Below are positions 36,925 to 63,284 of a stretch of 64,000 bases of DNA, one piece after another. A program made the position numbers and the translations under genes. Under the pieces are notes generated by a model, which saw only the letters and a program-made list of their open reading frames with translations, had not been told where the DNA came from and did no database searches. The stretch's first letter is position 1. Each line of letters begins with the position of its first letter. This stretch comes from Diprion similis (taxonomy: Eukaryota > Arthropoda > Insecta > Hymenoptera > Diprionidae). The stretch is taken from positions 15,398,001 through 15,462,000 of the forward strand of contig NC_060110.1 of the NCBI RefSeq assembly GCF_021155765.1, given 5' to 3'.

Positions 36925-37255
36925 GTAAGTGTAATTTCTGTAATTTTCGTCCTTCTGCACGTGGCATTTGCGTTATAATTGAACAGTTTGAATATACGAA
37001 TTATTTTATACGAAATGGTGCGACGGCCGTTGTAACGGACTCAGGTTAAATTTGAGCAACCTACAACGGTCTATTTTCGTTGTTTTTCTATATTCGTCAT
37101 GCTTTTAGATTAAATAGCTTCACAAGAAAAGTGTTTCTTAACTCCTCATCGTTTTCAAATTCCCGTTTTCTTCCGTAGTAGTGAACGTCTTCTCCTTTAT
37201 CTTCTTTAATTGGGTGTTAATATTGTAGGTGAATTTGGCAATATTTCGCCTCAAA

Positions 37256-40200
37256 ATGTCGATGCAACAAAAGCGCGATGACCTTGGGAAGCTTCTCGCT
37301 TGTTTTCTGGTATCAAGGAAAGGCGACAGTACCATATATGAACTAGAGAGAGATTATAAAGAAAACGAGGGCAGACCTATACCCTATCGAGATTTTGGAT
37401 GTATCTCTGTGTTGGACTTTTTGCGCAGTATTCCAGATCACGTGAGACTCTCGCCATCGAATGGAACACATTTAGTGTTCCCTGTTGTATCGGAAAAGAT
37501 TAAACACGTTAACGATCTGGTAGTAAAGCAAAGAGCCGCTAAGAAAAGTTGCTCATCACGTCGAAAAACCAGCAAGCCTTCCAGGTATTGTCCGAGGCTC
37601 AGGGAACCAAGTCCATTTATACCAAATAACGTGCAGAAAGAAATTGCTAGTATACTTACCAGAGAGCCAAATGGTGTGAAGAAAGATTATATTGTGCAAT
37701 ACTTGCAAAATTCACGTTCAATCGCTGGTACAGTCGATCTGACGAATGTTGATGATTACTTGACAAGCATGTCCCATATTGCTTACACGAGAGGCAACAT
37801 GGTTTTTCCAAGCCTTTCTCTTCATGTTACCAGTAATGTAGCACAGCATAACACACAACCGCCCAATCGGCCTGAAGCGGGGAAATCAAACATGTCAGAA
37901 ACCCCTCAACCTATGATGAGCATCAACAGCACACCAGTGATGAACACTTACCCTGCTGGTGCCGAAGAAGATGAAGATATGTTTTATGACGATGAATTTG
38001 GAGATGAAGAGATTAGGCTTCACTGTGCATCCATGGGTAATTACAAAGTTGACACTGATAATCAGCCTCAGCAGTCATCATGGACAAGTTTAGAACAAGG
38101 TGTAGGAAGAATGTCTTCGGCAGAATTTATTGCACGTGGTGCAGGATCATATGAACAAAGGCAATCGCAGACCAATACGTTACATCTAAGAAATAATAAT
38201 ATAGACGAAGAGGCTATGAACGAATTAACTTACAGCACTTATGCATCCGACGACGAAGAATTTGACATAATTAACGACAGATTAAAGTCACGTTTGCAAC
38301 AATTAATTCAAAAACATCCAGATGGAATATGGTGTGCCGATCTACCGCAAACATTTTTGGATGAATACAGTGTTCCATTGGACTATGCAGAACTCGGGTT
38401 TCAAAGTGTTTGCGACCTTGCATCCCGCCTTCCGAGTATTTTCCACCTATGTAGATGGGATAATCGCGGTGATTTCATATTGTACGACGCCACGGAACCC
38501 GTACCCACGAATATCAAAAAAACTGATTTTGATGAGCAGGATTCTGATTGGGCAGATGCCATTGATGATGACTACGAGGATATCGATCCGATTCCTCCGA
38601 CACTGGTATGTAATTATGCAGTAATATTAATATCTTACGATACAACGTTTTTCTGATCTTCTCATTATTATGTTAAAGTGAACCTATGTAATCGTAACAA
38701 AAATTTGCAATCCAGAATTTTCATAAAGAAGATTGAAACTAATTAGCTCTATATTTGTTTCACAGGATTTACAAGAATCACAAAAATTGATACCCCATGA
38801 TGTAATGAGCCATGGCGAAAGTGTTGGTCAACAGAGGATACCAGAATTTCCCTCTGATGGATGTGTCCACCACCTGGAAGTTTTTGTTTCAGAAGTTTAT
38901 ACGCCCAGTTTGTTCTGGGTTCATTTACGGAAAAAACGCCTGAAATTGGGACAGCTAATGGAAAATATGCAGTTAGTATTCAGGAACAAAGTTTATTCAG
39001 TCTATTACCGTTACTGATTTTCTGTTTGCAAGAACTGCAACCATTTGTGCTCAAATACCAAAATCCCAAGGTTCTGGACTCCGTTTTTCTTACATAGCTT
39101 GCCTGGTAGTATAATAAAATGTGTATATATTGCCACTAACATGTTCAATTAATCATGACAAATGTTGTGAAAATATACTCCGGGTCAGTAATGAGAAAAT
39201 AAGTCTCAACTGGAATGTCATTATTTATCCTATACTTTCAAAATTGACTTACCATGTCTAATAATTTTGGTAAAGTGTTCAGATCCAACTTGGTTGCAAA
39301 TGCATTTAAAAGTCTTCATTTTGTGTGCATAGTTTGCAAATATTATTTGAAGACATTAACACAAAACTGATCAATTCACACCCAGCTCAGTATGTAAAAC
39401 ATCATAGATTTTGCTGAATAGTTTGCAATATAATTAAATTGCCGAATGTCTGCCAAAAGCACACCATTTTTATTTTCAGTGAATTCTATCAGCGAGAAGG
39501 ACTTAATTATACTATCCCAACCGTCATACTAGAAAAAGGCTTGAATTGCGTTTGCATGTTTGAAGATAAATGGCATCGAGCCATAATCAAAACTGTAAAA
39601 CCAGATGGAGATGTTACGGTAAATTGAGGATTATTAATTTCAGAAAAACCATGCAAGAGATGAAAGCTTATTTATTCATGAGTAATATGCCATTCATAGC
39701 ATTTATTTTTAATGCTGAAACTAGTAGCCATAACACTTGGTAAAGGATCAAGCTTGTATGTTGAAATCATTCAAATGCAAGCCATGGCTGTAAGTTTCAG
39801 CATCGTCATTAAAGTGCAGCTGAAAACAATAATGAACATTTTTATTCCAGTTGATATTTTATGATTATGGTACAACCAAAACGTATCCATCAGAAGATGT
39901 GAGGTTCTTACATAGACTATTCTCAAATTTGCCTGCTCAATCAATTCCTTGTGGATTGTACAACATTAGACCTTTAAAACACGATGCTTGGACAAGAGGA
40001 GCAAGTTCAGATTTTTGGGATAAAGTTGCCGATATACCTCTAGTTGCTATCGTCAATAAAGTTGACAGAGAGGTAAGATGCTTATTAATTTCCAAATTCG
40101 ACTCACAATAATTTGACAAAAATATTAACATGAACTGTGTTAGTATTACTTCATATTTGAATTGTGAAATGTAACAAATTTCGTTTAACTACCTGCACCG

Positions 40201-43200
40201 AATTTCGAATTGAATTTTTCGTTACTACTATCCAACTTGTAAAATAATTATGAATAATTTTTATTCCTGTAGAATAATTCAATGCTGATATCATTGGTTG
40301 ACACACGAGAACAAACAGATGACCATATAAATGACTGGATGGTACATAAAGGACTGGCGGAATTTGGTAGCATGGTGCGTAATAGGCCTTCAAATTATGT
40401 ATTTAGACATTACGTAAAATGTATAAACTATCACTACGAAAACCGTGTAAATGCAAAAAAAAGGGTTCGACTAAATCTGCACGTGAACAACAAATACGTT
40501 GAACACACCGAATCCGAATCTAATTCTAATTCTAGACTAAAACTGAAGTCTGCTAATTCTATAAAAAGCTTGATGACAAAATTTTCCAAATATAAGAAAG
40601 GACAAAACCAAGATAATATTTCGCCCAGAAATGATGTTGACTCTGAACAAAACTCAACTTCTGAACACAGCACTGCAAACGAAAAACATTGTTTGCCCAA
40701 TCTTCCGGCATCGGAAATTGTCAAATCTTCTCGGAAGTCTATGAATGAAAATCGATTCCATAAGATTTTTAAATCTAAACTGGATTCAATGTGTGCTGCA
40801 GAGACCAACGTTAAGATAGTTGAAAATAGTTCAACAGCGGCGTCTTCAGTAGAACAGCGGACACATGAATCAGACTGTACTGACCATTGCAATAATTATG
40901 AAGTTTCATCCGAAGAATGTGTCAAACATGAACCAAATTCTGTTGAATTGAAAGATTTTGGTTCATTTAAAAGTTTTTTTGGAGGTCACGGTTTAACGGG
41001 CGACGTTGATTGGTCGAAAATTCGCACTGCAGTAAAAACTAAGCAGAAAATTGAGCCAATTGTAAGAGCTAAAACATCAGCTATCTCTGAATTTCCATTA
41101 TTCAATTTATGTGAAGAAGCTACAGGTACATCTGCGACATGTCAACATAGTGATAGGTGTAGTGACGATATTGAAAAAGGATCTGTGCCGTGTAAATATG
41201 TAACTAAGGTTGCAGAGGTAATTGATGAACCTGTCGACAAATCTCCTGTAAAGCAAATAATACCGGCCAAAAATTATTTTCTGAATGCAATTAAAAATAA
41301 CAAAGATCATTATTACAGTGCTCATGGTGAAAAATTGTGGTGGTCGCCTGATGGAAACATTGAGAATAAAGCAGGTGTTATTACCCCTTTACTGAGAATG
41401 AGAAGAAAGCGTTTTGAAGAATCAGATATCGATTTAATGAAGGTATCTGCATCGCCTGAGATATTGCAGAGTCTTAGAGGCAGAGATTTACAAAGTAAAT
41501 CTAAGGGTGCTGCATCTGAAAATACATCAGATCCAGACCTCAAATTCATTATACAATTGAAAAATATGGGCCATCGTAGTTCGGATATATCTGATCAAAG
41601 TTCACTTGAAATTCAAAGTAATGCTTCACAAACAAATCTGAATAAATCTGCTTGTTCCACAGCTGCTTTGCAAAATACTAATCAGAGTTGTAAGACATCT
41701 AATTCACTACCAAAACATCGATTTTCAACTACGATCGCTTATATGAATAGCAAGAAGAAGGAAAATGTACCTTTGCTTTCCAGACAAAATTTTTCCTCTG
41801 AAAGTTCTAGCGAAACTGTTGATACGAATAGCATTTCAATATTAGCCCCAACTTCAAGCAGCATGAATCTCACAGATTTCACTGATACTTCAAAAAAAAT
41901 TATTGGTTTATCAAAAGCTCAAGATGCATCGTGTGAAGATGAAGTATATTTTACAAAACAATTCGTCAAATCTTCAAATCATTCTCGAGATCAGGTATCA
42001 CCAACTATGCATGCCCCAATCCCAAATACGAATATCAATATCAGCGACATACCATCTACAAATATTGAAAATAGTCACGAGTCAGATAAACGATCAGAAG
42101 AGAAGTGCAAAGCTGAAGTTTTAAGTCAACATGATGGAATAGCAAAATTAGATTCAACTCTGAAAAACGAAGATGAAATATCGGTGATCAGTAACAGGAC
42201 TGTCCAAAGCAATTTGACAGAAAGTACTTCTAGCAATACTACAGGCAGTAATAAGCCAGTTATGAAGGTCTTAGATTTTCCGGACACTTGCTATGAAACA
42301 TCTGACCCTACAGAGAAACAAGAAAAGACTCATGTCTCAATTTGCCAAGGTACCAGTTTCATTTCAAACTCTAGTCGAATATCTAAATCATTTGAAACAA
42401 AAGAGCAAGTTGATGATTCAGTAGAACTACAGAATCATTCTAGTAACACTTCTGAACTGGATTCTGACGACCTTAGTCGGTCTTATTCTAACTCAGAAAT
42501 TGATAGTACATTCGTAACTCGAACAAAAATTGATATTGAATTACAGAGAAATTTCGATACTGAAACTTTAGATAATGAAGAAATCTTAGCCAGTCCACGA
42601 AATATTTTACCACGTGATACCGTAAATATTCAAGTACAATCAACACCTGATAACACGTCTGTACAGTCAGGATATAATAAGGAGATCAATACATGTGTGC
42701 CTAAAACTGAAACTCAGGCTTATGTGCCTATAGTCAATGATGAGGATGATATTGAGGATAGCGAAGACTGGGAAATACATGGTGTATGGCAAGATTTCAT
42801 GAAAGGTCAGGATAATTACATGACTCGCATTATGCATAAACTAGAAAGTGCAATCAGCAACCCAGATTCAGCGAAAATTTCTGAAGTAACCGATAACTCT
42901 GAAGTGGCTGATGTTTGCAACTCAAACTGTCTCAGAGATGAACCAAATGTTGAAAAGATTACTGAAAAAACGTATGAAAAGCAGTATGGTCAGGATAATT
43001 ACATGACTCGCATTATGCATAAACTAGAAAGCGCAATCAGCAACCCAGATTCAGCGAAAATTTCTGAAGTAACCGATAACTCTAAAGTGGCTGATGTTTG
43101 CAACTCAAACTGTCTCAGAGATAAACCTAATGTTGAAAAGATTACTGAAAAAACGTATGAAAAGCAGTATGGTCAGGTTCGCGTTGCGGAAAATGGTCAG

Positions 43201-44226
43201 AGTCGTAATTCCAATGATAAAATTTTTGACAGCACAGAATTAGTTGAAAACAATGTACTCAAACCTGGGAAACAAACAGCGTTAGTTGTGGACCAAAAAG
43301 TTCCTAGCAGTGATACTCAGGAACACATCAAAAAGTCTCATAGATTTGCCTGTGCGAATACACTAATTCAAACTTCTAACAATAACAACGAAAATCAAAC
43401 GACAACTTCAGTACCTAGTAGCTCTGGCAACAAAAGTCCCATTCCAGAAAATGAAAGCACATTTGATGACGTTTCTCCAATTATACATAAGTTACAAAAA
43501 AATGAAATTTCTATTGCTGAAATTTCTGATGTAAAAAGTCTCAATACAACATCTATGGAATATCAGAACCACACACTTGTAGCCACAACCTGTGACAAAA
43601 AAATACCGATTCGTGGACTTAGGAACAGAACAATGACCATGCAGGCAATGTTGAAAAATTTCAAAGATAAAACAAGTCTAAGGCGTTTCAATATCAATTC
43701 TGAACAAATCGACCATTCTATGCAGTGCAAAGCAAATACATCACAAAATGAAATGTCAGGAACAAGTTCTTCAATTGATGACGACACATTCGAAGAAATA
43801 GAAAAGAAAGAGTCAATATCTGATTCAGAAATGTTCGCCGACTTATCAAATACTTCAAGTTCAAGTAAAGATTCAGATTTTCTTGTTACGAATTCTATAG
43901 GTGGAAACGTATCCAAACATTCAAACGATCCACGCTTAAGAAATAAGTATGAAATTCTTGACAGAGAATCGAAATTATGCTCTAGTGACGATACAGAATC
44001 TATTGAAGACGAGTCACAAAGACTTCCAATTTTATCATCAATCAAGAAACATCAATTGACGGTAAAGTTTTATAAAAGTGACGAGCTTCAGAATGAAAAT
44101 ATTACACAAATAAATACTGATCCGGTTTTAAACAATGATAATTTACTTTTGAATGACAGTAGTTCAAGCAGTAACAGCTTGTCTCTCTCATTTCTTAATA
44201 AAATCAAATCTCTATTGGAAAAATAA
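37256..44226 (+). CDS. TDRD5: LOTUS and Tudor domain protein, TDRD5/Tejas type
   Basis: Exons 37256-38605, 38766-38971, 39480-39618, 39851-40072 and 40273-44226, phases consistent; 1,956 aa as drawn. Three LOTUS domains lie at residues about 7-80, 121-190 and 340-412. A single extended Tudor domain follows (about 470-673) with FYDYGTT and the flanking LPAQSIPCGLYNIRPL, the pattern of TDRD5. In this family LOTUS domains bind the Vasa helicase and the protein works in germ granules in piRNA production and transposon silencing. After the Tudor domain comes a tail of about 1,280 residues, Ser/Asn/Asp-rich and probably disordered, with a 61-residue tandem repeat. Human TDRD5 is about half this length. 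A donor at 40,374/40,375 in phase 0 could bypass the tail and join the block at 45,211. The start is MSMQQ; upstream is an acceptor and leader. Confidence 0.85.
42805..43170 (+). repeat. In-frame 183-bp tandem duplication within the long tail exon
   Basis: Two units, 42,805-42,987 and 42,988-43,170, differ at only four positions: two synonymous and two giving E to K. Each encodes 61 residues starting GQDNYMTRIMHKLESAIS and ending TYEKQY. A third unit begins (GGTCAG) but breaks off. The high identity marks a recent duplication or ongoing homogenisation. Confidence 0.95.
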
Positions 44227-45210: not shown

Positions 45211-48200
45211 GGGGATACCGTTGCCTTGGAGAGTTCATACCTAGATGACCGGAAAATTGATCTACAAGAAACAATAAAAGGGACAGAAAATGTGCCGCTA
45301 ATTTCACCCCAAAGTATTTTACTTGAAAGTTCAGCGAAATCTGTGAGACCGCCACCAGGTTTCACAAAACCTTTGGAACCCTCAGATTTTGCAGCTTTGG
45401 TTAGTGAATATTTAAGTGGCAAAGACTACACCAGTACTGAAATGGGAAACTCTCCATTTTTTAATTCCTCTGATGCAAATGAGAATAACAATCCCATAGT
45501 ACCACCGTCAGAAGCAATCATGGAACTTTTGAAAAAGCCATGGGAAATATATTTGCAATTAACAACAATTTTTCATCAGCTTCTTTTGCAAAATGTCAAC
45601 GTCCACACTACTAATCAAACAATGCAAAATACTTCTTGCACAACAGCGTCACCATCTACAACTAAAAATTCAGATATGCAACGGTCAACTACAAATCCAT
45701 TTCAAACTTATCAGGAAAACAATAATGAAGACCTCGCAACAACTATAAATGGCTGTGCAGCATCAAGTGATTATTCTACAAACGTGAATACTGACGAGCC
45801 TAATCTCCCTTGTTTTACCAGCAGTACACCTTTCTCTAATTCAGACAAAACTGCAAGCGGGAGTAACAAAGATTCTAATTTTCGAACATTCGATGCACAA
45901 AAATTTTTACATGAAGAACAAGTTTTTCCTGCAAAAAATGACAATCATCCACCTGCTATGTTGAATTCCACACATGTAAATAGCCATAGCTTTGGTATTG
46001 GTTATCTAAATGAAAGTTTGTCTAATGGAGGCCCCACAATTTTTTATGATAAAAACTCAAACTTACCTGCCACAGGTCAGTCGAACGTACAGAATGAAAG
46101 TCATGATATAAAAACAGCAAATGAATGCACAAGCTGTCACTTCTCTAAGCTTACAGAGAATGAACATTCAATACATGTAAATAACGGAAATGAATTCTCT
46201 ACACCAGAAAAGAATGAATCGTATAAGAACACATTCTCAAATGCAAACCAGAAAATCATTGGTACAAACTGTGTGAACAGTGACGAAAACGGAGCTTTTA
46301 CAAAATGGGAATTTCATGATACAAATCCATTCAAAGAATATGTTACGACAAACTTTTCACATAACATTAAGACTGAAAAAGAGGAGAGCTTTGCGGAAAA
46401 GTCTATTAATGTCATTGAAAAACCACCCATCCCGCCAAGAAATCCAAAATTGATAAATAAGACTGTCATTGCCTGCAAAGACAAGATCAAAGAAGTTAAA
46501 TGTGATCAATCAACCGATGTTGGCACTGTTCTAAACAAACCGACATCAAATGTTTACTACAAAAGTGGTCCAGTGATGTATGACATACAACAGAATGAAA
46601 CAAATACAAAAAATGACGAGCGTAGTGAACAAACTCCTGTATCAACGACCTTGGTAAGTTTTCAAAACAACAGACTCTCTCACACAGTAAACTCGACACA
46701 AAATGATCCAAGTGCGCTGCCTTCTTATGGAGAAGCATCGAGCTATCAAAATTCCGTTTTTTCAGAATCCAATTCCGAAATACATACTGATACATTTGAT
46801 GGTAGTTTCACTCCGCATCGCAGGCTTTCACCAAATCATCTACAAAGTTCAACTCCAAGAATAATAACCAATACTTACAGGGCCCCTCCGCCTTCTTATA
46901 CTGATACTAATCAGATGGTGTTTAGAAATAAAAACAAGTCTCCTATATCACCACAATTTAGTTCCCCAGTGCTATCTGATACTTCTAGAACTGCAATAAA
47001 CGAAATCCGATTAGCTACAGAAATTGATTTGTTTGACAAATTGCAATTTGTTCCAACAGAAACATCAACTTCACCTAAGTATGATCATGCAATGAAAAAT
47101 ATAGGCACACACAGTCAACTAACATCATCATCATCAACTCCAATGACAAATAACCATACTATATTTACAACCACTTTAAATTCACACTCACACAAGCAAA
47201 ACGTGGTAAAAATCAATGATTCGTACAACGTAGATTTAATTTCACCAAAATGTCGACAGGTCAAGCAAAGTACAATCAAGTTGAAACAAGAAAGACTCGC
47301 TAATTTGCGACAGAGAATAGCAGCCAAGATGACGTCAGTATTACCTCCAGAGAAGGAAAATATGGATCAAAACTTCACGAAGCAAGAAGAAGTTTTACCT
47401 GATGTAGAACAAAATGTCCCGAGATTATTGTCTTGGTCTAAACAGCATCAAGAGACTTATCATCTTGACGAAATTTCTCAAGGCAGTTCAGAAACACCAG
47501 TAAGTGGTCGAACCACGTGTGAAATGAAAATTGAACTTGACAACTGTACAGGAGCCCGAAATAAAGAAATATGTAATAGGAAGGAGAGACACAATAAATA
47601 TAGCACGACGCCAAATCAAGAGAGTCCACGAACCTCGGTAAATGGGCAGAACCTATTTAAAAACGGGAATGCTAATTGTGAAAATTCTAACCAGCATGTA
47701 ACATTGAATAACAATAATAATCTGGAGTTCTGTGATACCAAAGATATTAACACATCACCTGATGTTATTCCATACCATCTTCAGCTGCAATTTATCAATT
47801 TAAATCCACACTTACCACATTCATACGGCCAACAACATTATGGATCAAATTATCCATACCGGGCACAACAACCTCATATAATGCAACATCCACCAGTAAT
47901 CCAGCAGTTACCATTGTTCAGACCCAGTGCACCTAGATTCTACACCCATGCATCCAACTGGCATAGACCTCCATTTGTCAATCCAGCACCTAATTATCAG
48001 TTCACTAACATTCCGTATGCACATCAATATTCACAGTCTTGGAATCCATATCATAATTCACGCTTCTATATACCAAACCAAACCAACCAAACACCTCGTG
48101 TTCCGCTTGGAGCATCCACAACAAAATCACCATCAAACACAGGAGTAGACTTTGATAAAAAAAAATTATCATCGAGATTAAATGACTCACAGATACCTCC

Positions 48201-49669
48201 ACATCAGGCCAAGGCAAACATAAACATCGGCCAACATTCGCAGATGTCTGGTGAAATTTCAGAGTTCTCATCATATGATACAACGCAATCAGATAGTTCA
48301 GGTTTCACAGAGTATACAGAACATTCTAAGAATTCTAACGGACCTGAAGCACCAATAGATTCTCATTCTAATCGTTCATCTGAATATGATAACTGTGATT
48401 TATCAACGCACCTGGGTAAGTTGAGCTTAAGTACAGATAATCATGACGTGACAAAAAATGGACTTCTAAGTTCCATTGAAGAAGATACTGCCACTTCACC
48501 CAAATATGATCAAGTAATACCCGCAGCAGTTGTACCATTAAGAGTTGTATCAAAAAAGACAAGAAATGAGAATGATAATAATATTTCTCCACCCACTTCA
48601 TCTCGAGATCTGACCAAAGTCTTCAAACCAATTGGTGAGTTCATCTTTGTACATAAATTTCTTCAAATGAAATCATGTCTCATATATTTGTTTTCAATGA
48701 ATACAAAAAATGTGGCAAAATAGTGTTTACGTTTGTGTGCATTATTGATCTTATTGTCAATTATTTCAGAGGTAAATTATCAAGTGATCTACTTGTTCAA
48801 TATTAGAAATGAAGGATGGGTTTGTACTGACGAAATTATCTCAACCTTCACAAGCTACCCAAGTCGTAATGTAATCCTACGTTTACTAGAACTACTACAA
48901 ATAAACATTGATTTCTTGGAGGTGGATAGATCTCAAAGCCCGTTTTTATTCACCCAATTAGATAGGTAAGTATTCAAATTATGCAATTATTTACAATTAA
49001 ATACACGATAACATTCTAAAATGATAAGAGATGCAACCTGAATAAGTAAGTAAGAGAACTGCAATTTAAGGGCATTACTGCAGTTTTTCTCTGCAAGGAA
49101 AGTTAATCCTCTGCAAATTGAAACCAAAACTGTTATTGAAATAGAAAACCTTGACTTCTCCAATAATTGAAATGCATCTAACTCACATTGGCATGTGAAC
49201 CGTCAACATCAAATGTGGATCTTATGTCGTAATTCTGATAACTTAACAGGCTCAAAATAGGAGTTACCCTCTTCTCAGTTCCTCAGTTTATTCAATATGC
49301 CAGATGTAACGGGTATGCATTTTTTATATTTTTATTCTTTCAGTACAAACATACGTTTACCTAGAATGACAAATTCTAAAAGGATTAAAGGTGTTTTACA
49401 TTTGACCCCATTGAGGTCATTAGGTCGATTAATGTTCTGCTTGGAAGTCATTTCTGAAGAAGAGATTCAGAATTTGCGTGAAAAAAAACAGGCACCACTC
49501 GACTCAAATTTGTACGGATTGATGGTACATAGTTACCTTATTGTTTAATATTATACTCGGATGTCGTAACACAGCCACAGTGCATATTTGTATATAACAC
49601 AATGTGTTTCCTACTTTTCAGAAAATCATCACCTCTTATAAGCCAGATGACGAGTATTGGGTATCATGA
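45211..49669 (+). CDS. Long low-complexity protein block with conserved-looking C-terminus; probable alternative 3' part of the LOTUS-Tudor gene
   Basis: Exons 45211-48634, 48770-48965, 49344-49524 and 49622-49669; 1,282 codons including the stop less one. The frame opens exactly at a splice acceptor (CTTATAG), whose TAG is itself an in-frame stop. The first ATG (45,441) lies after sequence that already looks coding (RPPPGFTKPLEPSDF). It is therefore an internal exon. Phase-0 donors at 40,374/40,375 (right after the Tudor domain) and 44,061/44,062 could both feed it. The large exon is rich in Asn, Ser, Thr and Pro, with a PPPSY (WW-binding type) motif, a KPPIPPR (SH3-type) motif and two TSPKYD motifs. 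The last three exons encode about 140 residues of ordinary composition (LFNIRNEGWVCTDE, LRLLELLQINIDFLEV) that look folded. No family recognised for certain. Confidence 0.7.
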
Positions 49670-50541: not shown

Positions 50542-52975
50542 ATGTCTGATCCTTTGCAAGAAAAGCCATGCAAAAGTGATGGAGCTAAATCGCACCCCAG
50601 TAAAAAACAACAAACTGTGGTACAGAGTTTGAAATCGACAGCTACCACCTATATTTCGCGATTTATCACTTACGTGAATGGGTTATTTTCCAATAAACGT
50701 AAATATACCAATATTGTTCAAGTTAAAATTTCGGAAATAGATTTAAGAGATAATAACTAAAATATACTGAATACTTACTATATAAGTAATAAACACTCAG
50801 TGAGATAAGCGAATGGTCATTACCTTCTATGAATGTACTAATATTTTCTCGGTTTTTTTTTAGTTTTGCATAGCTCATGTGAAATAATGTAAAGAGATGT
50901 TGACCAACAAAATATAAATACGTAAAATTGAACTATCATAATGAACTTTTTTTCAATCTGTTTGTTATTAAGTTGAATGCCCAATTATGGAAAATTAAAT
51001 TACTTCTCATTTTATACAGAAGTACTTGGTGGCAATTTGCAGACTCGTATTTATGATGACCTGAAAGAACTCGTATGTAAAACTGAAAATAAAATCAACG
51101 AAGTTTACGGAAAAATTGTCACCGAAGTCAAGCTCTTAGAACAAAACGAGCTACAAGCATGTAAAAATTACTCAAAAGAAGAATTGGCGAAAGTTGATAG
51201 GAAGTTCAAAGTGTATTATATCACAATCCAGAAAATATTTGAAGAATTGATGGAGCGTTTGCACGGTTTTAAGAAGAGATTGCAAACTAAGATCGTAACT
51301 TATGAGGAATATCAAAGTTTAATTACGTACTTGGAAGAAAAAATTAATCAAACGCGGAAACTGACACAGGGAATGAATAAAAACATTCAGCAAACAATCA
51401 CCAATCCCAAACTGGAAGAAAAATTGATAGACACGGTTGAAAGTCATTATAAAAAAGTTATAAGTGTAATGGATACTCTTTGCACAGCAGTTAAGGTTTG
51501 AATTTTTTCGTTTCACCACCAAAATACATTTACTTTCATATGAATAGTACTTTACCAACTGTTGACGATTGTGAAAATGAAAATCATTAGTTGAAAAGTA
51601 ATATAACAATCTTTTCATTCTCATCTACCCGGACAAAACATTATTTAATATGTGAACTATTGAAACATGGAAAAATCTATTAAATATGTTTGTAATATCC
51701 AGGAAACTGACGTGCATGAAAAGTGGAAATTGAAATTTCGAATATCTCAAATAAAAAATCTGGTGATTGTGTCAGAAATAAAAATTAAAGAACTATTTCA
51801 TGGTATACTCAAGAAGGCCAAAAATGTACATGACAATGAGTTACAGACTTATAAGAACTATTCGAAAGAAGAATTGTTCAAAGTAAAGTCCAACTTACAA
51901 GAGTACTCTGTAAAAATACGAAAACTATCCGATGACACGCTCAAATATTTACATGTCCTCAAGATTGACTTTCAGAGACAGGTTATGACACACAGAGATT
52001 TTCAAAATTTGGTTTCGTACATAGATGGCAAAGTCATCGAAATTAAAAAGTTAACTGAAGAGTTACTCAAAAACATTCAAACCACCATCAAAGAGCCTAT
52101 ATTGGGAAAGAAATTGATGGCAGTGGTAGAAAGCAATACTCAAAAAATAAAAATTACTGTCGATGATCTTTACACAGCTATTAAGGTGAGAATAATTTTA
52201 ATCAAAGAATAAATTCTTAATGTTTTTATATTATATATGTGTAAATTAACCAACAACAAAAAAAAAAAAAAAAATCCAGCCCCTTGAAATCTATTTGCAC
52301 TACACTGTTTTTGAATCCATCACTCCAGAATTTAGTATATACACATGTTGTTATTAAACTACGCTAAGTATTTAAGATAGGCTAAAAATACATTGAATTC
52401 ACTTAGTCTGGTAAGAGACACATTCACATAAATGCAGACAAATATCAAGCTAATTCATAAAATTTGTTGAAATTCTACCAATGAGAAAGAACAAAAATCA
52501 GTATTGAATTATTTCAGGGCAATTTTACCAAGACCAATGGGTTCAAATCAATGACCGACAAGACAATGTTATTTTCAAAGTTACCTGTACTAGGAAAATT
52601 TAAGCAATCAGTGAATTGTTCTCCATTGTCATTGCCAAACAATGGTACTAAAATGGTGTCAGAGTGCAAAGGAAATTCAGTAGTCGGTTTACACAAAAAG
52701 AGAATATCATTCTTCAATTTGTGTAAACATTTCAACTCTACAACTAACCACGCACGTACTAATGTGAGTAACTCTGATTGATATAGTGGAATGTTTTGCA
52801 ATTGTTTTGTTTTGTGTTGTTAGTGATTGTGATTACATAATCTTACTGTTATTTGCTACTACATTTTAAACATCACTAACAAGTTTTTAATTTTTATGAA
52901 TTGTAGGTAGCAAAAGCCACATATGCAGGAATATTGATCTATTACTTGTATAAAAAGATCAAAAATACAACCTAA
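50542..52975 (+). CDS. Coiled-coil protein with DAPIT-like C-terminus (fusion gene)
   Basis: Five exons: 50542-50698, 51020-51495, 51703-52185, 52518-52763 and 52907-52975; 476 aa. All junction phases agree (1, 0, 0, 0). Exon 1 encodes a basic leader with a possible amphipathic helix. Exons 2 and 3 encode two homologous helical, charged modules of about 158-161 residues sharing NELQ..KNYSKEEL.KV and VES near their ends; both stop at T-A-x-K before the intron. Exon 4 gives a linker, then CKHFNSTTNHARTN. Exon 5 gives VAKATYAGILIYYLYKKIKN and the stop. The C-terminus parallels DAPIT (KYFNSQTNRGRAN, VAKATYA), with the intron at the same residue and phase. A mitochondrial inner-membrane role is inferred from this alone. 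The exon 2 donor (GTTTGA) is weak. The coiled-coil module is not recognised. Confidence 0.72.
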
Positions 52976-53076: not shown

Positions 53077-53913
53077 ATGTTAAACTTTCTGTAATCGGAT
53101 ATCTAAAGTATTTACTCCTGCAAGGCAATGATCAAGTTCTGTGTCTAGTCCATCCTGATGTAGTTAGTTAATTCAATATATACGTCTTGCAAGATTATTT
53201 ATACATTGGATATGCTAGTTCTTCAATGCGTTTTTTTGTTGTTTAACGTAATACAAGTTGTGTCTTTATTTCATTGAAATTATATTTCTTTTAAAGTATG
53301 CGTGTAATCTTATACAATGCAGAGTTGTGTTTTCATCCAAATCTGAGATCTGAAAAATCAAAGAATTAGATTTGACCAGTGACCTAAATGAACCAGCGCC
53401 TATTATTCATCAGATGGAAATTCAATCTTGCTCATATTTGCAATGTTTTGCAGTAAAGTTTGAGTACATAGAGATTCTTAATTGTTTATTCGTGCCGCAG
53501 CTATATCAATTGTTCGTGTATGCGATTTGCTTTGATTCGACCATTACAGTGGCTCTTCGCTATTTTGAGTTTGCTCTGTGTTATCAACTGTAGAGCAGAC
53601 AGAAAATGTAACTTTGTAACAGATTGGCGGTTACCATCCAGTTACGTCGAAAGTTAGTTTGAAAAACCTATTCATATCAGAGAGCGCTATTATATCGGGG
53701 ATACAAATAATGCTATGCTTCGATATAGTTTTGTAGTTTGCCGTTACTCGGGAATGGCGTATACATCGCGTGCTCATGTCAATTTTCAAGACGGCCATTG
53801 AGCAATTTCTCGGCTGTTCCGTACGCAGAAAGACTGATCGGTAGATATTTGATCGAATGAAATAAAAGTAGGGTTAGTACGTAGCAATTGATAAACTGTA
53901 ATAATTTCAGAAA

Positions 53914-54189
53914 ATGTCTGGAGATTCGAATGTGGATGAATCGAAATTTACTGGTCTGTCGAAATATTTCAACAGCCAGACGAATAGGGGCCGAGCTAAT
54001 GTAAGTCTGCCGCCTCTGCAGCTCTAACCTTCAATTTTACCAATTTACGTAATACGGAAAAGAAAAAGTGATTTGACTGTTTTCATTTGTGACAATTATT
54101 TTCGAATTTTCCAGGTGGCCAAGGCGACGTACGCAACCGTTGCCCTGATAGCTGCTTACTTTTATCTAAAACCAAAAAGCAAAAAATGA
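53914..54189 (+). CDS. ATP5MK: DAPIT, ATP synthase membrane subunit k (USMG5)
   Basis: Two coding exons, 53914-54000 and 54115-54189, phase 0; 53 aa, close to the 58 aa of human DAPIT. Residues 12-31 carry the hallmark GLSKYFNS and GRANVAKATYA, followed by one transmembrane helix (about 35-47) and a lysine-rich end (KPKSKK). DAPIT is a small accessory subunit of the mitochondrial F1Fo-ATP synthase in the inner membrane, involved in dimer stability. An acceptor (AATTTCAG) four bases before the ATG implies a noncoding first exon. It lies 938 bp downstream of the fusion gene, same strand. Confidence 0.95.
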
Positions 54190-54287: not shown

Positions 54288-54293
54288 AATAAA
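54288..54293 (+). terminator. Polyadenylation signal of DAPIT
   Basis: AATAAA 99 bp after the DAPIT stop codon, followed by a second AATAAA a few bases on. Position and spacing fit a short 3' untranslated region. Confidence 0.6.
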
Positions 54294-55495: not shown

Positions 55496-58400
55496 ATGTC
55501 CGGTACAAAAGATAACGAAATGAGTAAACTAGCAGCAACTGAGGGTGCCGATTGTGGAAAAGATGAAGAAATGGCCGGCAAAGACGTGGCTCAGGACAAT
55601 GTTAGCATACGAAAAATTCTCGAAGGAATGACGAACGAGTTCAACAAAAGCCTGAGCTTGAACAAAACTCTTGATGTTGAAAATACGACACAGAAAAATA
55701 ACAAAGTTGATAGTATCCTTAAGGATCATGAGAGGGTTCTCAAACATTCCAAGGTCGTTGATGAAGAACCAACACAAGTTGATGAAGTATCAGAAGAGTG
55801 CACTCAGGCTACCAGAACCAAAGCACCAGACGTCATAGATGATCCTGCTGAAAAAGCAGTCCAAGAAAATGACCACAGCCCCGAAAAGGACATTACCTCG
55901 AAAAAGGATAGTCCGAATAAAGAATCTATACCAAGAATAATATTGACATTTAGAACAATAGACGAGAACACGGATGATGGAAAAAAGACAAAAATATCCA
56001 GCTGTTCCTCCAATCTCAAGTTGGTTCCTGATGAATTGACCAATTGCGACCAAATCGGTGGTGTTTCGGTGAAAATTGAAACTTCTGATGAAAATTCAAA
56101 TCCTGCCGATAAGTCGGATGAAAATCAAGAAAAAATTGAAGCAGATCTGGAGGTACTAGGCAAAATCAAAGATGAGGATAACCAGGAGCAAAAAGTGAAA
56201 GAAGAGACGGTGAATCCTCACATGGAGTTGATTGAAAATAAGGAATCAGAATCTTCTGAGAAGATTGATTCGAGTAGCAAGAAAGTCAAGGTTCCAGAGC
56301 TCAGTAAAATCACGACAGAAACAGCAGAACCTAATTCGCCCCCTAAGAAAAGAAGGGTAGGACGTCCTAGGTTAAGAGCATTAAGGTTACTTTTCATTTT
56401 ATTATTACCTATTATAAGGCTTATACGTAATAAGATTTCAAGCAGCTTTTATTGATCTATCTTTGTTTACAATATAATGTTAATAATCAATCAGGAATAT
56501 ATATATTTTGAAATGAAGGTAATGTTACTATTTTAATTGAATATTATCTCAAACTTCTGATTTCTGAGATGTCGCCTATCGCAGAGTTATGTCTAATGAA
56601 GGTAAATACATTCAGTTTTAGAAATCAGATCAACCATTCTTTGGATTTTATATTGTATAGTCTCAGGATAATTGGCAAAGAACTTTGTATCGGATGATTA
56701 TGGTGATTTGATGTTCTATTTTGTTTAGCATTTCTTTGTTTACAAGACTCAAACATCTCAACTTTCAACAGTTCTGTTCTTGGAAAGATTAATGAATTAT
56801 TATCATAGATGTTATTCAGAAATATTTTTGAGATGCTTTAATTCTTTCAGAATGCGACCTATTAAGGTTTATGAAGTTTTTTTTATACTTTACATTGAAT
56901 AGATTATTGAGGATAATTTAATCAACTAATAGCATTATCTCCAAAAAAAACTTGTTACAGCGATTCAACGGAAGAGCTGCCAGGACCTGCAGGACCAAAA
57001 CGTTCCGCTCGTCGTTTGTGCAAAGAGTCTTTCAAAAGTACTGTACTGGAGAGTGCGATGGCCCGTAAAGAGAAATCGAATTATACTGATGAGCGAAAAT
57101 TCAAAAATGAGAAAAAGTATAGCAGACCCGGAAGACCTAAAAAAATCGTTAAATGGAAAGATCAGAATAAGCAATCCGATAAAAAAAACTGTGAAAATCG
57201 AACTGATAATTCTCGGAATGTGACAGACATAAATGGTATGCCATCAGATGTAAATGCCTCTTTGGATTCATCCAGAAACAACACAACTTTGTCGGACAAA
57301 AGTCCAAACGATATTAGCTCGGAAGATCCACAGAATTCTTCCATGGATCTTGAAGGAATGCCAAAGTTGTCTCCAATTACAAAAACTGTAGATAGTAGTC
57401 AGACTAGTTCTGGTCATTCTACAAGCCCTACGAGAGAAGACGACATGGCCATGAACATTGAAAGTGATAAACCTTTTTTGAAACCTATCATCAGTCGTAG
57501 TAAACGAGAACGTGGCCGACCAAAAGGAAGCACCAGTGCTAGAAAAATAGCTAAAGTAGATTCTTTCAATGAAGGTGAGTTACAAAATTGAACTTTCAAA
57601 GATTTTAGGTACAATGAAAGCGTGAATGGTGCAAACTCGCATCTTATTTCGTACATTATTACATACGAATAACATTGATACATACGAAATAATTACATAA
57701 GCAGTGTTTCGTAAATAATTTCAGATGGATCACCATCTGTTGCAGAAACTGGTAAAAACAACGACTATCCTGAAGGTATGATTTAGATTTTACATTTTCA
57801 TTGCACTGAGAATTATAAAAAGATTTTTGTGAAATATTATGTAAAGGCTTTAGGTATATTTAAAAGTTTCAAGTCCATAGTGATTATTCTGATTTTCCAT
57901 TATCAGCACTGTTAAATTGTTTTCCAATCACTTTTTACAGAAGGCACAGTCCCGGCAAAAAGAACTCGGCGTAGTATGGTTCCTAGTCCAAGTCCTGCCG
58001 AGGGTCAAGCATCAAAACCAGAATCCACGGCAATTTTGAATGAAGTTAGTACTTATTAACTGAATTTATTGAGAGTTGTAAGTTAGTAGTTACTTATTTT
58101 CAGTATCTGCAGTCACTATACAAATTCCAGAATCGCCTTAAACATTGATAGTCACTAAAAGCTATTCGAAAATACTACAGTATTTTGTTACTTTGTCAAT
58201 GACTTGCAATGAAATTCAGTCATCTCAGCACATGGAAATTAAGTTGAATCTTATAAAGCAGTAAGCACTAGAGAGCATATTTCAGTGCATCTTCTGAAAC
58301 TTGTATTCTACACTGAAGATTGTGGGTACAAATTTCAATTACGAACAACATTTTTGCTGTTATTCTGCATATTCCTAATGCTCTTCTTTGGCATGGTTTA

Positions 58401-61400
58401 ATTGATCCCGATAGTCGTTGTTGGGTATCTATTATCCATGTGGGACATTTTATGAATAATATTTACTTACATAAAACATCATTTATTTTGCAGGTCTATA
58501 CACCCTCTTTATTGTGCCTGTGCCAGATACGTTCTCAATTATACGTAACGATCACAGGTTCTGGGGCCCCTCTTTATTGTACAGCAACAGATTCGATAGA
58601 TAGTAAAGTTGTAGGCTGCTGCAACGAAGTAGATAGCAACGACGTTGCAATGCGCCGACCTAGTGCCAGAGTGCCTTTCATAATACTTTGTCGTATGCAT
58701 AAGGAGCGATTGCTTAGACACAACTGCTGTCCAAGTTGTGGACTATTTTGTACACAGGGTAGGTTTGTCCAGTGTGTAAATGGGCATCAGTACCACAGAG
58801 AGTGTGAGATATACCCTAATAAAAAAGCGTTGTGTCCTCATTGTGGCTGCGACAGTTCGTCGTACGATGTAGCAATTACTATGAGAGCAATGAGGAAACC
58901 TGTATTCATACCAACTCGGAGAAAGTTTTCTAAGTTACCATCTGCAAAAATGAGTTTTACGGGAAAAGGAGACAATACCAAACTGGCGGGTAGACCTCCC
59001 AGTCCTTTGATCCCACCGGAAGCTATTAAGATTCAACAACCAAATTGTAACGCTGACAGACCAGAACGTTATACGATTATGAGTCTATATACGTCTGTCA
59101 AAAATGGAGATTTAGAGAAGTTGGTCAATGTATTAGGTGAGTATTGGAAATTGAGTGGTGTGAACCCTATTTCATTATTGATAGAGTACTGTTGAGATTT
59201 GGCCAAATCATTATCATGTGCTATAAGCTGGTTGAATCGTGAGGAAGATGAACAATTATGTTTACAGCATGTGGTTACAATGCTAATCACACATTTCGTG
59301 ATTATGCTCTTCGCACAAGCTTACACATTGCGGCTGATAAAGGTCATTTGTCGTGTGTCCATACCTTGGTACAAGCAGGGGCCCAGCTAGATGTTATGGA
59401 TAAAAATCAGCTAACCCCGTTGATGCTAGCTGCCGCAAAGGGAAAAGTTGATGTTGTAAAATACTTGATTAAGATAGGAGCTGATGTAACATTGAAAGGT
59501 GAAGATGGTATGACAGTGTTGCATATGGCAGCTAAGTCTGGGCATTTGGATGTGTGCCAAATCATTTTAGCTGAATGCAAGGTTCCAAGAACCCTAGTAG
59601 GTAATTAAAAACATTTCTAAGCATTAAATAATTAAAGGTCATTGGCTGAGCTGGGAAAGGAAAAAAATTTCAGTGTTAAACCACTGTCTTTTTTTGCACA
59701 TTACACATTACCATTGTACCTTCGAATAAGATGATTACCATATTATTTTTTTTTCCAACAGACTCAGTGGATGATGGCGGTTGGACGAGTTTGATTTGGG
59801 CTTGCGAATTTTGTCATACAGAAGTAGCTAGATTTTTGCTTGAAAAACGATGTGACCCTTTGATAAGAGATGCTGAGCAGAATATAGCTTTACATTGGAG
59901 TGCATTCAGTGGAAGTTCAGAAATTACGGAACTCTTACTAAACCAAGGGTGTGATGTCAACGCTGTCAATGTTCACGGGGATACGCCATTGTAAGTCATT
60001 GAAGTTAGACTGAATTTATATGTCATTTAACATGAATTTGCAGTAAGTGAGTATAATTATAATGCTTGTGGCTTGATATTATCGTCTAAAGATCTTATAA
60101 TATCCGGACATCACTTATTAATTGTAATTGTGGATAAAAGGAGTTTTTAAAAATGCGAAAACTTGGAAAAAGCGAAAAATAATTAGGATATTTGAAGATC
60201 AATCTTGCAAGAACGTTCAGAGTCGAAATAAATTCTGAATTATAGAAACATAGCTAAAATCACATACGGTAATTATTTTCTAGACATATCGCTGCCAGGC
60301 AAGATCAGTATGCTGTAAGCGTTTTACTTTTGGCACGGGGTGCTAAAATTGGAGAAACAAATACAGCTGGAGAAACTGCTGTAAATTGTTGTCCATCAGA
60401 AGGCGATACTATGGCAGCGTTGAGATTGAATGCAAAAGTGAACGAGTTAACGGAACACATGTGGGAACCTACAGTTAAAATATTGTCGAAGTAAGTATTA
60501 TCTGAGAACGTACAAGTAATCACAACAAATTTCAAAAAGACGTTTAGGATAATTTATCAGCAGAATCGATGTTCATCAGATACAGAAAGTGCTCATAAAT
60601 AGTGAGCAAACAATATATATTTCCACTTATTACTCGCATAATATATTTGGCAGCTGAATATATTACACTGCCATTTGATGAAATTATTTCCAGTGACATA
60701 TCACGAGGCAAAGAAACAAATCCCATCCAGTGTGTGAATGGGTATGACTCTGAAGACAAGCCTACCGATTTCTTATACGTTACAGAAAATTGTTTTACAA
60801 GTAGTATAAATGTTGATCGTACAATAACGTCGCTGCAATCTTGCCGTTGCGAAGATTACTGTAGTTCCGAGAAATGCTTATGCGGGAATATAAGTCTGAG
60901 ATGTTGGTATGACGAAGAGGGAAAACTTATTCCTGAGTTCAATTATGCTGGTGAGTGTTGGTGATGAATTTGTATAAGATTCAATTATTGATTGTAAACT
61001 TTTTTCACATGGTATCCGTACATTTTTTACATTTCAGATCCGCCGATGTTGTTTGAATGCAACCAGGCTTGCGATTGTAATCGTATAACATGTAATAATC
61101 GGGTGGTGCAACATGGCTTAACTCAAAGGTTTCAACTATTTAGGACTAAAGGAAAGGGTTGGGGTCTAAGAACGTTGCGATTCATTCTAAAAGGGACTTA
61201 CGTCTGTGAATATGTTGGAGAAATCATATCTGATTCTGAAGCCGATCATCGCGAAGATGACTCCTATTTGTTTGACCTGGACAACAGAGTAAGTTTCTCA
61301 TAGTGATAACTATTTTACCCCTTTTTAAACTAGGGGTCAGGTCATTAAAATTTATTTTTCACCCTACTACGGATAGGAAGAGGGTAATCTGATTAGATCG

Positions 61401-63284
61401 TTTGCTATACACCTCTAAAAAATACTCACCAAATATGAGCTCTTAATTTTGATAGGAAGGTCCTCCGCTTTATAGTTTTCCATTTGTTCCTCAGTATTAG
61501 AAACGAAAAACCTTTGATATCTTTCAAACGGTGAGGTTTAGGGAAAAATTATACGAGACCTATTTTGTAGAGCGTTCAATTTCCTACAAGAATATGAGGA
61601 GAGATATTTTTTAACGAACATTTAATAGAGAGATATAAATTTTCGTTTCTAATACTGAGGAACAAATGGAAAACTATAAAGCGGAGGACCTTCCTATCAA
61701 AATTAAGAGCTCATATTTGGTGAGTATTTTATAGAGGTGTAAAGCAACCGATTTTTCAGAGTATAAAGTGAAAAAAAAAAAATAGTCGGTTTTTTTGACC
61801 CACCCTAATGTACACCCTAATAAAGTCGATTCTGACCCTCATTGGTTTTGCGGCTCAAAAATAAGGTTGGGTTTTGGCAGCCTCTAACCAATGGCTGTGG
61901 CGCATTGGCCAATAAGGCATCTGTTACTCAACGGATATAAGTTACACACCAGTGCGACCAATATTATTTTTGACGCTCCAGAATTGGTTGGATCAGAATC
62001 GACTTTACTCAGGTATACGTTTGTTTAGAATCACTTTTCGCCTGAAAGACTCAATATATTTCAACGAAATAAAAGTCAGAAAAGTGATTCTTAAAGTTTT
62101 AGAAGCATTCTTAACTAGGTTAAACTCACGTGAAACCACTAACAGGGAGATGGGGGACAGGGGGACGGCGTACAATTTCATTGAGGGTGTTGCTGATTCC
62201 AAATGAGTTTCGTTTTATAATACATAAGAATAAGTCTCTCCATGATTATCTTATTGAATCTGAAGGGTCATTTTTAAACATGTGAAAAGTTACAAGGGTC
62301 TAATTATTTATTTTCATTTAGGACGGAGAAACGTACTGCATAGATGCAAGACGCTACGGTAATCTTGCTCGTTTCATAAACCATTCTTGTGCACCTAATC
62401 TTCTACCTGTCCGAGTATTCGTTGAGCACCAAGATCTTCATTTTCCAAGGATTGCATTCTTCGCTAACCGAGATATTGATGCTGACGAAGAACTTGGGTA
62501 CGTTAAACGGAACTGTTCCTGCTGTTAAAGAAGCAGTAATGGCAGTGATGTTTGTACGAATATTGTCGTGTGAAATAAAAGCTTTTTCTTTTGTTTTCGT
62601 TGCCTCATAATTATTGTATTTCGTCATCATAATAGATCATTACTACATAGAAACACCACTTCAAATTTTGATGAATTTTTTCATTTGCTCTCTGTCGTCA
62701 TGGTAGATGTGGTATTGAGTGTATTCAATTGCTGTGTCACAGGATATGAACTGTCGTAACATAATAATTTTCACTTACATATTTGCAATCACTCATGATT
62801 CTGAGAATACAGCTGATCTCAAATTATGGCGATTATTGAACTAATTTGAAAAACCCATAATCGTGTTATGTCATGTCATATCATCACTTCATACCACGCT
62901 TTTCAATTCATCCAAGGTAGGTAAGTCTTGGACAAACGTACCCACTCTGCATTAAACGTATGCAATACCATTCTTTATGTGTAGTAAATATTTATCGTGA
63001 ACGGAAAAAGTTATTGAAGTACTCGGTATTATCGTGAACTCTGTGTTTCTCGTTGTCTGCAACATCTTTATTCATATTAAATTATATATATATATAAATA
63101 TATCGAAATTCCTTTTTTCAGTTTTGATTATGGCGAAAAGTTCTGGATTATAAAGTGCAAGTCATTTACTTGTACCTGTGGTGCTGAAGCCTGTCGATAT
63201 TCAGAAACTACAATTCAACTCACGCTGGATAATTACAGAAGAAAAATTCAACAGGAGGAGCAGCTTGCCGCACAATTATCTTAA
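55496..63284 (+). CDS. G9a: Histone H3K9 methyltransferase G9a/EHMT
   Basis: Twelve coding exons: 55496-56370, 56961-57574, 57725-57775, 57941-58044, 58494-59136, 59268-59600, 59762-59990, 60284-60490, 60694-60950, 61038-61288, 62322-62497 and 63122-63284; 1,300 aa with consistent phases. The acidic N-terminal half has three AT-hook-like cores (VGRPR about 287, PGRPKK about 348, RGRPKG about 476). A cysteine-rich domain ([14 protein letters not shown]) at about 555-650 precedes ankyrin repeats (about 745-1010). The repeats keep [11 protein letters not shown], the segment holding the methyl-lysine cage of GLP/G9a. Pre-SET cysteines (CRCEDYC, CLCG) lead into [33 protein letters not shown] post-[11 protein letters not shown] follows. 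The family mono- and dimethylates H3K9 in the nucleus using SAM. The start follows a splice acceptor in the leader. Confidence 0.95.
61331..61807. mobile_element. Fold-back element (MITE) in a G9a SET-domain intron
   Basis: Two near-identical inverted arms of about 100 bases (61,411-61,510 and 61,641-61,740) are separated by about 130 bp. Weaker inverted similarity continues outward to TAGGG at 61,331 and CCCTA at 61,807. A TA at each end is compatible with TA target duplication. There is no coding capacity. It occupies the middle of the 1,033-bp intron 61,289-62,321, leaving the splice sites intact. The transcript could form a long hairpin here. Confidence 0.75.

Follow-up and report, generated by a model that had tools for sequence, protein, structure and literature searches.

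The closest described systems are the testis-enriched paralogs of ATP-synthase subunits in Drosophila. Knon, a paralog of subunit d, carries 532 extra residues; according to the accessible part of its description, the spermatid Nebenkern depends on it for its structure, and its expression in flight muscle changes the dimer:monomer ratio (PMC5364652). The same partial text gives a moderately enlarged F6 paralog, with 147 residues versus 106 in its partner, and a g paralog similar in size to its partner (PMC5364652). The second relevant system is DAPIT, which has been renamed subunit k and, according to the excerpt available, may link ATP-synthase dimers in rows (PMC7519299). Bovine DAPIT has one predicted transmembrane helix, and in the portion of the report at hand cross-links make a matrix location of its N-terminus likely (PMC4505582). 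The accessible passages of two sources describe the subunit as loosely held or lost in purification (PMC4505582, PMC12325954).

In a 64,000-nucleotide stretch of the genome of the hymenopteran Diprion similis (contig NC_060110.1, positions 15,398,001 to 15,462,000; hereafter, the window), a DAPIT copy appears, judging from the sequence, to be fused in frame to a larger helical protein, adjoining the normal DAPIT gene (Table 1). Five exons join in frame to encode 476 aa followed by a stop codon, with no internal stop, and all four introns are GT...AG, with phases 1, 0, 0 and 0. The region 50542-52975 contains stop-free runs of 182, 174 and 98 codons. Of 1000 dinucleotide-shuffled versions, a single one had a longest run that reached 158 codons, and none had three runs of 98 codons or more. 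A sequence-only reading of the window had assembled five exons in compatible phases into a 476-aa protein, and the GT/AG introns, the in-frame join and the rarity of such stop-free runs in shuffles bear this out. We consider it likely that this is a real gene with all five exons. The frame is kept when exon 3, exon 4 or both are skipped and is lost when exon 2 is skipped, so shorter isoforms with the DAPIT tail would be possible. Separately, exon 3 could splice in frame into the ordinary DAPIT gene (53911-54000), which would give a possible further isoform.

Table 1. Features of the predicted fused gene and of the ordinary DAPIT gene, in window coordinates.
Feature	Position	Strand	Description
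Exon 1	50542..50698	+	ATG, 52 codons plus one base; open; in-phase splice to exon 2; amphipathic stretch at residues 34-51 (helical moment)
Exon 2	51020..51495	+	First helical module, about 159 aa; 38% identical to exon 3; no stop; four helices predicted by AlphaFold2
Exon 3	51703..52185	+	Second helical module, 161 aa; four helices predicted by AlphaFold2
Exon 4	52518..52763	+	Linker, then first half of the DAPIT-like segment (FFNLCKHFNSTTNHARTN); PF14960 match
Exon 5	52907..52975	+	VAKATYAGILIYYLYKKIKNTT, then stop; DAPIT membrane segment; PF14960 match
Ordinary DAPIT, coding exon 1	53914..54000	+	With coding exon 2, PF14960 E 3.2e-24
Ordinary DAPIT, coding exon 2 with stop	54115..54189	+	AATAAA at 54288 and 54295
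AATAAA in intron 3	52208..52213	+	Overlaps the read-through-frame stop TAA at 52210-52212
Alternative start (AAAATGG)	52653..52763	+	In-frame ATG; with exon 5 gives a separate 59-aa DAPIT-like protein

Splice sites were ranked by percentile among the GTs or AGs of the window, using weight matrices. The junctions that make the fusion have better donors than the upstream two: 52186 (AAG|GTGAGA) ranks in the top 0.2% of GTs and 52764 in the top 1.4%, whereas 50699 (AAC|GTAAAT, top 17%) and 51496 (AAG|GTTTGA, top 13%) are weak. The four acceptors fall within the best 0.7 to 9.8% of AGs, with acceptor 52517 in the best 5.4%. The second and third exons duplicate one another over the length of the module, with the KNYSKEEL block kept, and their similarity extends to both donors (...TAVK| and ...TAIK|). 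Thus, these two exon ends have support that does not depend on splice-site strength.

The comparison of exons 2 and 3 also bears on coding. Across 157 codons they differ at 62 first, 49 second and 94 third positions. Estimates of dN were 0.48, 0.56 and 0.65 by three methods; two of these gave dS values of 1.5 and 3.7, and with the other dS could not be computed. Of 13 fourfold sites, 2 agree (0.29 expected at random). In a neutral simulation with local base composition, 0.1 substitutions per site led to 3 stops per exon and 0.75 to about 11, versus 0 observed; both exons together stayed free of stops in 0.002 of the runs at 0.1 and in no run from 0.25 upwards. Neither exon contains a stop or a frameshift despite saturated silent sites, a combination that neutral simulation almost never gives, which indicates that exons 2 and 3 are real coding sequence, kept as protein.

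For the tail, the argument depends on how its divergence is split between branches, since the neutral probability varies with the number of substitutions per site. Between the tail and the corresponding segment of ordinary DAPIT, dN is 0.62-0.67, dS is saturated or not computable and 1 of 7 fourfold sites is the same. A neutrally drifting tail kept at least 19 identities without a stop with a frequency of 0.0005 at 0.75 substitutions per site (2000 runs), 0.018 at 0.5 and 0.29 at 0.25. The coding case for the DAPIT tail is therefore good but not closed, as neutral drift is possible if 0.25 substitutions per site fell on the tail's branch alone. A weak codon-usage score singled out the first part of exon 4, which lies in the best 0.9% of non-coding windows and scores best in its own frame; for both exon 5 and exon 2 of ordinary DAPIT, the two other frames outscored the proper one, and the score is too weak to use. 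These results frame the reading of the locus as a decaying or chance exon chain, in which the tail would be a dying duplicate that is open by accident. The weak donors at 50699 and 51496, the uninformative codon score, the shortness of the tail and the possibility that its own branch is short speak for it, but 476 codons without an internal stop, the clear constraint on exons 2 and 3 and the retained signature residues of the tail make it very unlikely. The alternatives weighed here and below overlap, and the likelihoods attached to them need not sum with that of the best explanation.

The relationship of the tail to DAPIT is seen at the level of profile, residues and gene structure. In the spliced 476-aa protein, PF14960 matches residues 441-473 with E 8.6e-9 and 35.2 bits (Pfam gathering cut-off 25), versus 84.6 bits for the 53-aa ordinary DAPIT, whose start lies 0.94 kb downstream of the fused gene. 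The tail's match covers model positions 15-47 of 50, so the first residues of DAPIT are not kept. Positions 52710-52763 of exon 4 align to ordinary DAPIT, and over the whole alignment 19 of 40 residues are identical, the maximum in 10,000 shuffles being 11. Twelve signature positions (F, K, F, N, S, T, R, N, A, T, Y and Y) are common to the tail, ordinary DAPIT and one mammalian DAPIT. With this one sequence as the only outgroup, the tail has 15 identities in 40 positions versus 22 for the ordinary copy. A single-sequence search against solved mammalian DAPIT chains gave a weak match for the tail (best E 0.017) and a clear one for ordinary DAPIT (1.3e-09). In both gene models a phase-0 intron lies at the same residue (N|VAKATYA), as the sequence-only reading had noticed; its statement that the last 35 or so residues copy DAPIT agrees with the above-cut-off Pfam match and the 19 identities. 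That reading went on to propose a tandem duplication of DAPIT followed by capture of upstream coiled-coil exons. The first part of the proposal, a tandem paralog joined in frame to upstream exons, is the interpretation we favour, because intron position and phase are common to both genes, the Pfam match is present and divergence is accompanied by retained signature residues. Origin of the DAPIT-like C-terminus by tandem duplication is thus well supported.

Whether the tail belongs to the same transcript as the helical part is a separate question. One alternative holds that there are two genes: exons 1-3 would specify a helical protein whose frame stops within intron 3 (at 52212), and a short, independent transcript arising in the exon 4 region would code for a 59-aa DAPIT duplicate beginning at the ATG at 52653. 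By eye, this ATG has a good context, and the product has DAPIT's usual length. It matches PF14960 with E 1.7e-10 and 40.7 bits versus 35.2 for the complete chain, a difference that is partly an effect of length. The AATAAA at 52208, overlapping the read-through stop, is a possible intronic poly(A) signal for a form without DAPIT, whereas the motif scan found no AATAAA between the stop of the fused gene and 53861, where the variant signals GATAAA (52986), AATATA (53175) and others follow the last exon. However, the + strand of the window has 1.34 AATAAA motifs per kb, so the intronic copy may be there by chance. The strength of donor 52186 and the rank of acceptor 52517 are also at odds with two genes, as is exon 4 upstream of the ATG, which is open in the right frame and has the best, if weak, codon score there. 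In addition, either intron 3, of 332 bases, or the beginning of exon 4 would have to contain a promoter. We regard two separate genes as unlikely, and continue with the fused gene; a single mRNA carrying the helical part and the DAPIT tail is at present a predicted and unproven chain.

The upstream part had been called a coiled coil, a label that needs revision, as it is not simply one. Exons 2 and 3 encode duplicated modules of about 160 residues, and this part is better described, on the basis of structure prediction, as two tandem helical modules than as a coiled coil. AlphaFold2, run on each module with only the two module sequences, predicted four long helices for exon 3 (pLDDT 73.4 and pTM 0.63 in the best model; pLDDT 49.8 to 57.3 in the other four of the five) and four long helices for exon 2 (pLDDT 59.2, pTM 0.49). 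A fold search with the exon 3 model returned 529 matches, none at E 0.001 or less; the best 50 were designed bundles, vinculin, catenin, talin and other helical proteins, and this insignificant and assorted company suggests that the fold is generic. No Pfam family matched the helical part above cut-off (8 weak ones lie below it), and a two-sequence profile gave 0 matches to solved relatives at E up to 10. The spliced protein as a whole retrieved eight solved sequences, namely six DAPIT chains (E 0.017 to 0.92) and two of apolipoprotein L1 (0.63 and 0.72). Within the window, a six-frame comparison found no third copy of the module beyond exons 2 and 3 (best match E 0.7). Pattern matches to the module numbered 281 in viral contigs and 417 in prokaryotic genome contigs, with none confirmed in either, and ordinary DAPIT had no match in phage records; by their descriptions, these collections contain no insect genomes and are silent on insects.

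Taken together, the gene structures suggest a scenario in which a gene for two tandem four-helix modules acquired its last two exons from a tandem duplicate of DAPIT. A DAPIT copy without its own start would have been spliced onto an upstream gene with phase-0 exon ends. When exon 3 is joined to the AG just before the ATG of ordinary DAPIT (53910), the result is in frame without any repair; as an acceptor this AG is weak, in the best 30% only. It illustrates how a fusion could start via a 5'-UTR acceptor and is not evidence for that route.

How the fused protein might act depends on whether the tail inserts as DAPIT does. The DAPIT tail would insert the protein into the mitochondrial inner membrane, and the helical part, roughly 430 residues, would then sit in the matrix beside the ATP-synthase membrane domain, because the N-terminus of DAPIT is most likely in the matrix. 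The insertion step is weakened by the lower hydrophobicity of the tail, whose best 17-residue mean hydropathy is 0.69 versus 1.24 in ordinary DAPIT; elsewhere in the 476-aa protein two windows exceed the tail's (1.26 at 231 and 0.82 at 199). No canonical mitochondrial presequence is evident by eye (acidic residues at 3, 7 and 13; no arginine before 40). A further alternative accepts the fused gene and denies it an ATP-synthase role, the tail doing no more than holding a helical protein of unrelated function to a membrane or to mitochondria. It fits the lack of a Pfam family above cut-off and of a significant solved relative for the helical part, as well as the drift of the tail away from mammalian DAPIT, but FNS-T-R-N is kept before the hydrophobic span and is not obviously needed by a mere anchor. 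We consider an anchor-only function rather unlikely.

An ATP-synthase function, to which we return, would have the fused protein replace or compete with ordinary DAPIT in some complexes. Its helical arm could serve as a spacer or tether, altering dimer alignment and thereby the shape of cristae. Such a role would probably be confined to one tissue, for instance developing sperm, as proposed for Knon in flies. Overall, the chance that the fused gene acts as an ATP-synthase-associated membrane protein falls, in our view, slightly short of even. Granted a real five-exon gene, location in the inner membrane and association with ATP synthase become reasonably probable, and granted these, a testis-biased role in cristae, drawn from analogy, would be an evenly balanced call. 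By the same analogy, a tissue-specific modifier of ATP-synthase dimer packing would be the likeliest role. The boldest version is of a dimer-row subunit turned matrix scaffold, in which the tail docks in the membrane sector and the two four-helix modules bridge or space adjacent dimers and so remodel the cristae of one cell type. The task proposed for Knon in fly sperm would then have been solved independently a second time; we offer this as an improbable speculation.

The surroundings of the locus are varied. The upstream neighbour (37229-40111) has a LOTUS (OST-HTH) domain with E 2.1e-18 and Tudor matches split between one piece at 2.1e-05 and another at 0.0049; we take it to be a LOTUS-Tudor gene of the TDRD5/Tejas type. 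Genes of this type have a germ-line role, and the neighbour is at most a hint to the role of the fused gene. Next to it, a 1317-codon open frame (40273-44226) has no Pfam match at E 0.01 and contains a nearly identical in-frame tandem repeat of about 60 residues, seen by eye (QDNYMTRIMHKLES...KQYG twice), which looks recent. It is followed by a long Asn/Ser-rich frame and then short exon-like frames (45211-49669); the three pieces scanned there have no Pfam match above cut-off. On the - strand, similar sulfotransferase-like genes are represented by three pieces that may form a cluster (8460-8870, 13253-13744 and 26954-27514); two have a sub-threshold Sulfotransfer_3 match and one has none. A histone methyltransferase gene of the EHMT/G9a type, with a Cys-rich region, ankyrin repeats and SET, lies around 58317-62528. 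Scans of the window for tRNAs (bacterial settings) and with Rfam gave no matches.

Subunit k is tiny and easily lost in purification, so its possible dimer-row role is hard to test. If the proposed function is true, a natural DAPIT variant with a large arm would be a ready-made probe of how the spacing of dimers determines the form of cristae. With Knon, there would then be two cases of an enlarged peripheral ATP-synthase subunit, suggesting a recurrent route to a tissue-specific mitochondrial form, and the gene would be an example of a fusion arising from a tandem duplicate.

Compared with DAPIT itself (ATP5MK, ATP synthase subunit k, PF14960), the C-terminal 40 residues of the fused protein carry its signature residues, and the intron within them matches that of the adjacent gene in position and phase. 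DAPIT is normally a stand-alone protein of about 55 aa, whereas here it is the terminal part of a predicted 476-aa protein, lacking DAPIT's own N-terminus and having a less hydrophobic span. In the literature, no DAPIT ending a larger protein was found among the matches listed, a search whose scope left most subscription papers and gene databases outside, and an annotated but undescribed ortholog may well exist. Like Knon, as far as its description is accessible, the fused gene model combines a duplicated ATP-synthase subunit with a large, charged, non-homologous region (PMC5364652); this combination of a subunit-derived domain and a large unrelated extension depends on the predicted splicing. 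The available text puts the Knon extension at 28% E or K, versus 25% K+E in residues 53-372 of the fused protein (PMC5364652). By contrast, Knon derives from subunit d rather than k, and its extension is C-terminal and predicted to be mostly unstructured (PMC5364652, in part); no homology to subunit d was found in the fused protein among 9 Pfam families to E 10 or 8 solved sequences, and a profile search gave 0. In the same portion of that source, Knon is not beside its parent gene and its testis role is demonstrated (PMC5364652). The F6 and g paralogs of Drosophila resemble the tail in coming from peripheral-stalk or dimer-interface subunits; they are reported to evolve faster than the ordinary copies, as the tail may also do, but their parent genes are not adjacent, so far as the accessible text goes (PMC5364652). 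Since Knon, with its large extension, and F6 are known enlarged subunit paralogs, the fused architecture has a precedent as a type. What differs here is which subunit is extended, its arm of two modules and its location next to the parent gene.
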